Shown here in pieces: positions 11,823 to 26,510 of a stretch of DNA of 64,000 nt. The position numbers and the translations under genes were made by a program. The stretch lies in assembly GCF_002952775.1 (NCBI RefSeq), contig NZ_CP025066.1, positions 1,798,001-1,862,000 on the forward strand, written 5' to 3'. The first letter of the stretch is position 1, and the number at the start of each line of letters is the position of its first letter. The notes below the pieces were generated by a model. The model was not told the origin of the DNA. It searched no databases and was given only the letters and a program-made list of their open reading frames with translations. The DNA comes from Halalkaliarchaeum desulfuricum. GTDB lineage: Archaea > Halobacteriota > Halobacteria > Halobacteriales > Haloferacaceae.

Positions 11823-11895
11823 GCCCGGGTGGTGTAGTGGCCCATCATACGACCCTGTCACGGTCGTGACGCGGGTTCAAATCCCGCCTCGGGCG
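11823..11895 (+). tRNA. tRNA-Asp (anticodon GTC)
   Basis: A 73-nt tRNA. The acceptor arms GCCCGGG (11823-11829) and CTCGGGC (11888-11894) pair over 7 bp with one G-T pair, followed by discriminator G. The anticodon stem CGACC/GGTCG encloses loop CTGTCAC with anticodon GTC. The T arm reads GCGGGTTCAAATCCCGC. The CCA is not encoded. The 3' part of the gene is duplicated downstream (see the direct repeat). Confidence 0.97.
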
Positions 11896-11938
11896 TACTT
11901 TTCGGCGGACACAGCGAACGAGGAGCGAAGCGACGAGT
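11872..11938 (+). repeat. Direct repeat copy 1 (tRNA-Asp 3' end plus flank), 67 bp
   Basis: The last 24 nt of tRNA-Asp and the following 43 bp are repeated identically at 12011-12077. The copy spacing is 139 bp. Confidence 0.95.
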
Positions 11939-11967
11939 GAGCCGTCCGCCGAAATACCCATCTCAAA

Positions 11968-12024
11968 GGGATTTGAACCACGCAAACCCGAGCTTGCGAG
12001 GGTTTGCAATCGGGTTCAAATCCC
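11968..12024. repeat. Nested inverted repeats derived from the tRNA T arm
   Basis: GGGATTTGAACC (11968-11979) is complementary to GGTTCAAATCCC (12013-12024). Inside it GCAAACCC (11982-11989) is complementary to GGGTTTGC (12000-12007). A further 11-bp inverted repeat joins 11900-11910 with 11944-11954. The spacer between the direct repeats is thus itself built from inverted tRNA-like pieces. Confidence 0.85.
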
Positions 12025-12077
12025 GCCTCGGGCGTACTTTTCGGCGGACACAGCGAACGAGGAGCGAAGCGACGAGT
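12011..12077 (+). repeat. Direct repeat copy 2 (partial tRNA-Asp 3' end), 67 bp
   Basis: Identical to 11872-11938. It contains the T-arm half and acceptor 3' strand of tRNA-Asp but no 5' half, so it is not a tRNA gene. It has the form of an att-like site left by recombination or integration at the tRNA. Confidence 0.9.
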
Positions 12078-12131
12078 ACCGTCTCGACCGCTAACGCGTC
12101 GCTTTTGTGTCCGCCTCACCCACGAACAGCC

Positions 12132-12767
12132 ATGAAAGCGGGCGTCATCGCGGTCCAGGGCGACGTGAGCGAGCACGCGGCGGCGATCCGTCGGGCTGGC
12201 GAGGCCCACGGCGTCGACGTCGAGACCGTGTCGATCCGTCGCTCCGGGATCGTCCCCGACTGCGACCTACTGGCAATACCGGGCGGCGAATCGACGACGA
12301 TCTCGCGGCAGGTCCACGACGAGGGGATCGCCCCGGAGATCCGGGCACACGTCGAGGCTGGGAAGCCGGTGCTCGCGACCTGCGCCGGACTGATCGTGCT
12401 CTCCCGGGACGCAAAGGACGACCGCGTGTCCACGCTCGATCTCCTCGACGCCACCATCGACCGGAACGCCTTCGGCAGACAGGCGGACAGCTTCCGGGCG
12501 CCGGTCGACGTGGTCGGTCTCGAGGACCCGTTCCCCGGCGTGTTCATCAGGGCGCCGACCGTCGACGAGGTCGGCGACGGCGTCGAGACGCTTTCGACCT
12601 GGGAGAGCCGTCCGGTCGCCGTTCGCGAGGGGCCGATCCTGGCGACGGCCTTCCACCCGGAACTCACCGACGACGTCCGGATCCACCGACTCGCATTCTT
12701 CGACGCCGATCTCGCTACCGACGCCGACAGCCCCGAGGACGACGCCGGGGAGGTGGCCGCCGAATGA
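12132..12767 (+). CDS. pdxT: Pyridoxal 5'-phosphate synthase glutaminase subunit PdxT
   Basis: A 211-residue class I-like glutaminase that supplies ammonia to PdxS for de novo PLP synthesis. Seen: MKAGVIAVQGDVSEH at the N terminus, the PGGEST oxyanion loop near residue 54, the nucleophile in LATCAGLIVL near residue 84, DATIDRNAFGRQADSF, and the catalytic His/Glu pair in ATAFHPELT near residue 182. The ATG at 12132 is chosen because the longer frame runs through the tRNA-derived repeat. pdxS is not in this window. The stop overlaps the hisE start (ATGA). Confidence 0.95.
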   Translation: MKAGVIAVQGDVSEHAAAIRRAGEAHGVDVETVSIRRSGIVPDCDLLAIPGGESTTISRQVHDEGIAPEIRAHVEAGKPVLATCAGLIVLSRDAKDDRVSTLDLLDATIDRNAFGRQADSFRAPVDVVGLEDPFPGVFIRAPTVDEVGDGVETLSTWESRPVAVREGPILATAFHPELTDDVRIHRLAFFDADLATDADSPEDDAGEVAAE

Positions 12768-26297: not shown

Positions 26298-26358
26298 GAC
26301 GCTTTCTGCAGCACAGGCTCCTCGCTCCGCTCGTCGCAGTTGTGCTGCAGAAAGCGTC
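26298..26358. repeat. Perfect 18-bp inverted repeat beside tRNA-Arg
   Basis: GACGCTTTCTGCAGCACA (26298-26315) is complementary to TGTGCTGCAGAAAGCGTC (26341-26358), with a 25-nt loop. The right arm runs directly into a partial copy of the tRNA-Arg 3' end. Confidence 0.95.
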
Positions 26359-26408
26359 CGGACGGAGTCCCACGCGAACGAAGTGAGCGTGGGGCACGTC
26401 CGGACGTG
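26355..26408. repeat. Partial tRNA-Arg 3'-end copy and palindromes
   Basis: CGTCCGGACGGAG (26355-26367) repeats the tRNA segment 26438-26450. CACGTCCGGACGTG (26395-26408) is a perfect 14-bp palindrome with the same core. CGAACGAAGTGAG occurs twice (26375-26387 and 26416-26428). Confidence 0.9.
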
Positions 26409-26437: not shown

Positions 26438-26510
26438 CGTCCGGACGGAGATTTGAACTCCGGTCCCTGGCTCCGCAAGCCAAGAGGATAGTCCACTACC
26501 CTACCCGGAC
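26438..26510 (-). tRNA. tRNA-Arg (anticodon GCG)
   Basis: A 73-nt tRNA read on the minus strand. The acceptor stem GTCCGGG pairs with TCCGGAC (last pair G-T), followed by discriminator G. The anticodon stem TTGGC/GCCAG encloses TTGCGGA with anticodon GCG. The T arm is CGGAGTTCAAATCTCCG. The CCA is not encoded. Flanking DNA on its 3' side carries repeats of its own end. Confidence 0.95.

Follow-up and report, generated by a model that had tools for sequence, protein, structure and literature searches.

Many tRNA genes of Halalkaliarchaeum desulfuricum are followed shortly downstream by a copy of their own 3' end: 17 of the 43 carry one at an alignment score cut of 14, and 19 of the 43 at a score of at least 13. 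The copies belong to short palindromic units that are also found in other haloarchaea. Since related species gain and lose these units, the ends of tRNAs resemble sites where tiny inserts without genes can land. We consider it about an even chance that haloarchaeal tRNA genes are anchors for the serial insertion of short, gene-less, palindromic units.

One such array is located in the window (the whole 64-kb stretch of DNA analysed), behind tRNA-Asp(GTC), which occupies positions 11823-11895 of the forward strand, the strand of all features of this locus (ARAGORN; Rfam RF00005, 59.3 bits). The last 24 nt of the tRNA (11872-11895), comprising the T-arm and the 3' acceptor strand, form the copied tail. 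They begin a direct repeat of 67 nt which occurs with 100% identity at 11872-11938 and 12011-12077, at a spacing of 139 and with a spacer of 72 nt. The sequence-only reading of this locus had described the 67-bp repeat, its spacing, the 72-bp spacer, an inverted T-arm and an inner hairpin, and a repeat search found all its figures to be correct. What it missed is the outer stem of the trailer hairpin (hairpin A, 11896-11954), in which TTTCGGCGGAC (11900-11910) pairs with GTCCGCCGAAA (11944-11954) over 11 bp; the second half of this stem falls inside the 72-bp spacer. The inverted T-arm (T') follows at 11968-11979; its sequence, GGGATTTGAACC, is complementary in 12 of 12 positions to the T-arm of both direct copies. 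The loop hairpin (hairpin B) covers 11980-12010 and has a stem formed by GCAAACCC (11982-11989) and GGGTTTGC (12000-12007).

The direct copy of the tail (12011-12034) is 24 nt long, extends from the T-arm to the discriminator base, lacks CCA and is not called as a tRNA gene by either ARAGORN or Rfam. A second, truncated module A (12035-12077) reaches the end of the 67-bp repeat. Directly behind it, at 12078-12087, the sequence ACCGTCTCG was found by eye to be similar to the 3' end of the alpha loops described below, and perhaps it is a remnant of a second unit resembling an alpha unit of the sister species. The array is bounded by the next gene, pdxT (12132-12767, forward strand; TIGR03800, 4e-59), and the flank can be aligned with that of the sister species (G001) from about 12088. 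Folded as RNA, the 11963-12034 segment has an energy of -36.2 kcal/mol (z = -5.27) and the 11939-12077 segment a z of -4.81, with 0 of 200 shuffles as good in either case.

Chance falls far short of explaining an exact repeat of 67 nt. The stronger sign, however, is the recurrence of the same arrangement at many tRNAs and in other species while controls give zero, and this upholds the earlier judgement that the locus was too ordered for chance.

The genome scan located 44 tRNA matches, corresponding to 43 distinct loci according to ARAGORN. For each tRNA, the last 24 nt were aligned to its own downstream region (nt 6-400) and to the downstream regions of every other tRNA. Tail scores averaged 12.6 on the own downstream region vs 7.9 on those of the others, the latter having a 99th percentile of 14.5 and a maximum of 24; in a control region of 100 nt upstream of the own tRNA the best tail score was 9. 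The tRNAs scoring at least 13 are Val-TAC, both Lys, Phe, Ala-CGC, Arg-CCG, Arg-GCG, Gly-GCC, Gly-TCC (ARAGORN label, L075), both Gln, Tyr, one Met, Asp, Pro-TGG, Pro-GGG, Leu-CAA, His, and Thr-TGT. On its own downstream region each of these 19 tails comes first among the 43, except that of Ala-CGC, which comes fourth. Since own scores exceed those of other tRNAs and 18 of 19 are first in rank, the tail copies are tRNA-specific. tRNA-Thr(TGT) and tRNA-His have three copies each within 500 nt, with a period of 125 bp in the case of Thr.

The window's other tRNA, tRNA-Arg(GCG), is located on the reverse strand at 26438-26510 (ARAGORN, Rfam). Behind a hairpin it has a weak 13-nt copy of its acceptor end at 26355-26367 on the same strand (coordinates converted from downstream position 70-83), with a score of 13, below the cut of 14, and rank 1 of 43; the T-arm is not copied.

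The earlier reading had also pointed to integrases as something to look for. No tyrosine-integrase gene was found within the 64-kb window: PF00589 is present at ten places in the genome, the nearest 153 kb off, and the 72-bp spacer is too small for a gene. One tyrosine integrase (G000:C1:2335007-2335453) is located directly downstream of tRNA-Leu(TAG) (2336188-2336270). This tRNA has no unit of the kind described here in this genome and two copies in the sister species. Its end may serve as a site for both a classic element and the small units.

The occurrence of the Asp arrangement was assessed in named species genomes. The tRNA-Asp pattern found at least 120 stretches, holding 199 tRNA-Asp genes among the matches listed. 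Sixty-five of the 199 were dropped, 60 of them having another tRNA within 200 nt or N and five having less than 200 nt. Among the matches listed, 66 of the remaining 134 haloarchaeal loci have a tail copy at most 300 nt downstream, with a median start at 121 nt, while a reversed tail and an internal tRNA segment, used as controls, were each found at 0 of 134. Again among the matches listed, an exact acceptor variant is present in 47 of the 66 copies, and it is the variant of the own tRNA in 47 of 47 (the other 19 match neither variant exactly); the spacer contains an inverted T-arm in 51 of the 66, and the copies are distributed over 25 of 43 genus labels, one of which is 'unassigned'.

A strict pattern of inverted and direct T-arms matched 16 of 24 haloarchaeal genomes of the order vs 0 of 124 others of the phylum, and its reversed version matched 0 of 148 genomes. 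A looser T-arm pattern matched 93 of 117 genomes; its reversed control matched one genome, and inspection of 30 loci found a tRNA nearby in 20 and none in 10. As the looser pattern has chance matches, we relied on the stricter one. One of the sequences matched by the looser pattern is a 34-bp palindrome (GACTCGAACGGCTC...) present at six places in G073:C1 as identical or reverse copies. In the tRNA-by-tRNA test, applied to the best 30 of 44 tRNA loci of each genome together with the tRNAs in the same stretches, tail copies followed 18 of the 32 tRNAs of a haloarchaeon from another family (G034) and none of the 32 of an outgroup genome (G160) within the phylum. The arrangement thus recurs at other haloarchaeal tRNA loci, where the earlier reading had proposed to look for it; relatives have it, and the copied segment is the 3' tail of the tRNA, so the absence from relatives and the lack of any att-like site that would have spoken against the earlier reading are not what is seen.

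Occupied tRNAs have one or several units behind them. Between two tails the order is trailer hairpin A, inverted T-arm, loop hairpin B and direct tail copy, and the tail-to-tail spacer is mostly 60-150 nt. Unit boundaries were determined on 327 usable loci, 46 of 373 having been skipped because another tRNA is directly behind. This set is enriched in units, many loci having been fetched by unit patterns, and it was therefore used for boundaries and not for frequency. Tail copies begin in the T-stem, 21-25 nt before the tRNA end, in 233 of 242 cases. In 124 of 179 copies, identity with the own trailer breaks off 0-2 nt beyond the discriminator base.

Clustering of 159 loops has revealed main families shared by different tRNAs: beta (47 units, 18 tRNA types), gamma (33 units, 9 types) and alpha, which comprises 12 units at 10 types and has a related group of 5 units at 5 types. 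Paired changes are in excess in alpha (18 of 22 pairs vs a shuffle mean of 8) and beta (10 of 18 vs 4.7), and gamma loops have no such excess (1 of 7 vs 1.0). The inverted T-arm matches the own tRNA above others (p = 5e-19; 123 non-Asp units), while the acceptor part of the inverted copy is barely own-specific (p = 0.048; no specificity in the direct-acceptor control, p = 0.52).

A beta pattern devoid of the T-arm gave 17 matches, spread over 7 of 25 genomes and with 10 of them in the sister species; the control gave none. Sixteen of these matches are downstream of a tRNA and in its orientation; the 17th (L281) is flanked by a T-arm and an apparent tRNA-tail copy. Among 30 loci found with an alpha pattern, 22 have a tRNA nearby, one has T-arm flanks and seven are elsewhere. 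Alpha-type hairpins with other flanks and no tRNA nearby were seen in G030 (17 matches) and at L249, L250, L252, L255, L256, L269, and L274. In Halorubrum spp., similar A and B modules are combined differently at the same tRNA, as judged by eye.

The sister species, a member of the same genus, has copies at 20 of 43 tRNAs, and 17 of 43 orthologous tRNA pairs are occupied in only one of the two species. Array length differs as well: H. desulfuricum and its sister have 0 and 6 copies at Arg-CCT, and 1 and 4 at Leu-CAA. In 7 of the 17 polymorphic pairs, alignment places the empty species' trailer on the downstream side of a copy in the occupied one, either within 0-2 nt of a copy boundary (Leu-GAG, Phe, Thr-TGT) or further on (His, Met, Tyr, Gly-CCC). 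At Leu-GAG of the sister species, an unrelated unit is located between the tRNA and the old trailer. The remaining pairs include two with the trailer kept at the tRNA, one with a unit-to-unit alignment, one that goes the opposite way and six that are uninformative. Single pairs do not separate gain from loss.

At the Asp locus, module A and T' (11896-11980) are identical in 84 of 85 nt to the second module of the sister's Asp array, and the loop that follows differs; the module holds the first position in H. desulfuricum and the second in its sister. Elsewhere in the sister genome, away from tRNA-Asp, the G001:C2:378830-379895 region contains 15 matches to the window's trailer-loop sequence, mostly 70 bp apart.

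Decay of the copies is polar. In arrays of at least two copies at a cut of 15, the tRNA-proximal copy is nearer to the tRNA sequence than the last one in 23 cases and worse in 3, with 21 ties (p = 9e-5), counts which include related species and are hence non-independent. Because spurious distal matches could bias a loose cut, the comparison was re-run at stricter ones: 37 vs 4 at the loose cut became 21 vs 3 at a cut of 16. Such polarity could also result from conversion by the tRNA.

Under serial insertion, a new unit would enter between the tRNA and its trailer. The tail would be duplicated on entry, as happens at an att site or with a CRISPR repeat, and the tRNA would thereby remain intact. 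Older units would be displaced outward and then decay, recombine away between copies or amplify in tandem. B loops may be swapped among different tRNAs at the T-arm, as T-arms are alike and acceptors are not. Two chemistries can be envisaged: an att-like exchange, in which the tail would be brought by the unit, and a staggered cut of the target with fill-in, as for a CRISPR repeat or a target-site duplication, in which the tail would be copied from the host. The staggered cut would be the simplest account, since one loop family occurs beside 18 different tails. The own-specific T' suggests that its pairing with the T-arm plays a part in choosing the target or in forming a hairpin intermediate.

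We speculate further that the tRNA may be the leader of a polar-growing array, with an enzyme that would recognise the T-arm hairpin, insert units and duplicate the 21-25-nt tail like a CRISPR repeat; this more specific proposal seems less likely than not. Several observations count against insertion. No enzyme for it was found, Cas1 being absent from the unit-rich sister species and no integrase being close by. Own-specific T' is not predicted by simple insertion of foreign units, the constant loop orientation is more expected of RNA, and 7 of the 30 alpha loci lie apart from any tRNA.

Candidate vehicles were considered as well. Cas1 is present in 12 of 40 relatives, including H. desulfuricum; it is absent from the unit-rich sister species (20/43) and from G034 (18/32). 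It is therefore dispensable, and an origin from Cas1 or a casposon was rejected. A virus-borne vehicle was rejected on the basis of 0 matches to the exact beta pattern in IMG/VR viral contigs. A search of plasmids gave two records, with both matches adjoining a tRNA, and a search of plasmids and phages with the tRNA-Asp locus gave short matches only, mostly to the tRNA part. A Haloarcula halophila plasmid (NZ_CP119561.1, about 238-246 kb; L353 / L354) has 17 clustered tRNA genes according to ARAGORN; this cluster is near a gene for a TROVE-domain (Ro60-like) protein and a type B DNA polymerase gene, and a beta-type unit is located behind its tRNA-Asn.

Several other explanations compete with serial insertion. 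The arrays could be of local origin and involve no mobility: at the near-palindromic T-arm, template switching during replication or unequal recombination would generate tail-inverted tail-tail arrays, conversion by the tRNA would keep the copies alike, and B loops would spread via short homology or conversion at the T-arm. Own specificity of the T-arm part of the inverted copy, hardly seen in its acceptor part, is in line with such an origin, as are exact tandem periods (125 bp at tRNA-Thr(TGT), for example) and the extension of the Asp repeat by 43 bp into the trailer. However, trailers flanking a copy are often unrelated, with identity mostly ending just past the tail, loop families recur over 18 tRNA types and across genera, and the unrelated unit at Leu-GAG of the sister species separates the tRNA from its old trailer. 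We consider local origin rather unlikely.

A selected trailer RNA seems to us less likely still. Transcribed hairpins, consisting of an acceptor-like tail, a T-arm stem and a conserved loop, would then serve tRNA 3' processing, termination or small RNAs. The structured RNA made of tRNA pieces suggested by the sequence-only reading gains from the paired changes in two of the three loop families and from the trailer-derived small RNAs reported in H. volcanii (PMC3544259, as partly related second-hand), and it loses from the gamma family, which has no excess of such changes. The uniform orientation of beta loops (16 of 16 in that of the tRNA) also speaks for RNA, while occupation of 17 of 43 loci in only one of two sisters means that the units are dispensable. 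Mismatches in the hairpins were counted in the 163 of 220 units with T' at no more than 2 mismatches to the own T-arm, the arms not being independent observations, and the outcome is mixed: G.T exceeds A.C in the arms (46 vs 15), the difference is smaller in hairpin A (80 vs 61) and it is reversed in the loops (9 vs 58, driven by a conserved C.A mismatch). T-runs do not discriminate either. TTTT is present in the first 20 nt after the last copy in 44 of 172 cases vs 1 of 172 in mid-unit, but it is also found directly behind the tRNA in 57 of 172 cases with units vs 40 of 138 without. Covariance models of Rfam 15 revealed no family that fits the units, in the window at gathering scores and at five unit-bearing loci to E 0.1; at these five loci all matches were to tRNA or overlapped tRNA, apart from one ribosomal leader away from the unit. 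This leader, L4-Archaeoglobi (75 bits), is located at L036:486-585 on the reverse strand, in a haloarchaeon and near tRNA-Gly.

The sequence-only reading had also proposed the minimal scar of an excised, once larger integrative element. Part of this stands, as a footprint of insertion at a tRNA 3' end, and in length the tail copy is comparable to the att copies of haloarchaeal prophages (22 nt for tRNA-Ala of Hqr. walsbyi; PMC3119063). A one-off scar is contradicted by the spread of short, often tandem units through the genome and the class: too many tRNAs are involved, spacing is regular, hairpins recur, arrays are formed and the window revealed no integrase. The excision scar of a single element was therefore rejected as an account of a pattern present at many tRNAs, and a scar origin in general appears very improbable. 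Least credible of all is that chance or the low-complexity palindromes typical of haloarchaea produced the arrays, even though hairpin turns of the GAGCGAAGCGAG type are frequent and the trailer loop alone matches the 15-copy row of the sister genome. Against chance, the copies are own-tRNA-specific and bounded, tails of other tRNAs are not equally frequent at the same places in the 43-tRNA test, and the controls gave zero, namely both tRNA-Asp controls (among the matches listed), the reversed strict pattern and the outgroup (best 30 of 44 loci).

Among known systems, the nearest layout is that of the distal repeats of E. coli tyrT, the source of rtT RNA, where tandem 178-bp units downstream of the tRNA each contain its last 19 nt. 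These repeats are known from one locus, while the haloarchaeal units occur at many tRNAs throughout a whole class, contain an inverted T-arm and share loop families. In CRISPR and casposon systems the repeat is duplicated with each insertion and the newest unit adjoins the leader. In the haloarchaeal arrays copy decay is polar and trailers are displaced, features that do not tell gain from loss or conversion. These arrays differ in that several unit-bearing genomes have no Cas1, each tRNA has its own repeat, and recurring hairpin families, with no exact beta pattern in viral contigs, take the place of unique foreign spacers. Integron attC sites form imperfectly paired hairpins whose arms are complementary and whose ends vary, likewise organised in arrays, but the arms of the haloarchaeal units are tRNA sequence. 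Tandem tRNA genes or pseudogenes are a poor match, as the copy contains only the last 21-25 nt, has no tRNA body and receives no ARAGORN or Rfam call.

Like the units, integrative elements are bordered on either side by the 3' end of the tRNA, repeated in direct orientation, and leave the tRNA intact. Excerpts of the literature describe att sites of haloarchaeal proviruses in which the insertion is bounded by a directly repeated 3' end of the tRNA, 22 or 43 nt long in Hqr. walsbyi (PMC3119063), and attribute tRNA-targeted integration to archaeal tyrosine recombinases (PMC8371274, PMC3119063). There, the copies are kilobases apart and enclose an integrase and cargo (PMC3119063, in excerpt), while the haloarchaeal units are about 100 nt long, gene-less, palindromic, often tandem and present at about 40% of tRNAs. 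MITEs, PATEs, and SMRs are described in Haloquadratum in the same excerpt (PMC3119063). Elements of the REP or MITE type are similarly short, gene-less, palindromic and dispersed in families; unlike them, the units are bound to tRNA 3' ends and have tRNA-specific arms and a 21-25-nt tail copy. In Methanopyrus kandleri, a palindrome is located about 10 bp behind about half of the tRNA genes (PMC5217627); the excerpt of that report presents it as a short common motif, with no own-tail copy or arrays.

We found no description of such arrays in open-licence papers or in the annotations encountered, which is no proof of absence. The arrays extend known tRNA-tail repeats and short palindromic elements, and we give an insertion process of a new kind a minority chance. 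If the polar-leader proposal is true, haloarchaea as a class would possess a family of mobile hairpins that lack genes and insert, anchored at tRNAs, by a chemistry of their own. If serial insertion is right, a large part of the haloarchaeal tRNA genes would sit within fast-changing arrays built of their own tails; these arrays would serve as a natural archive of what has inserted at tRNA ends and may point to a new insertion enzyme. Partial tRNA copies otherwise taken for prophage remnants would have an alternative account. As the small inserts lack cargo, why tRNA 3' ends attract inserts becomes testable here. For RNA biology, the units would make up a class of pre-tRNA trailers with a structure of their own, in organisms from which small RNAs derived from trailers have already been reported.
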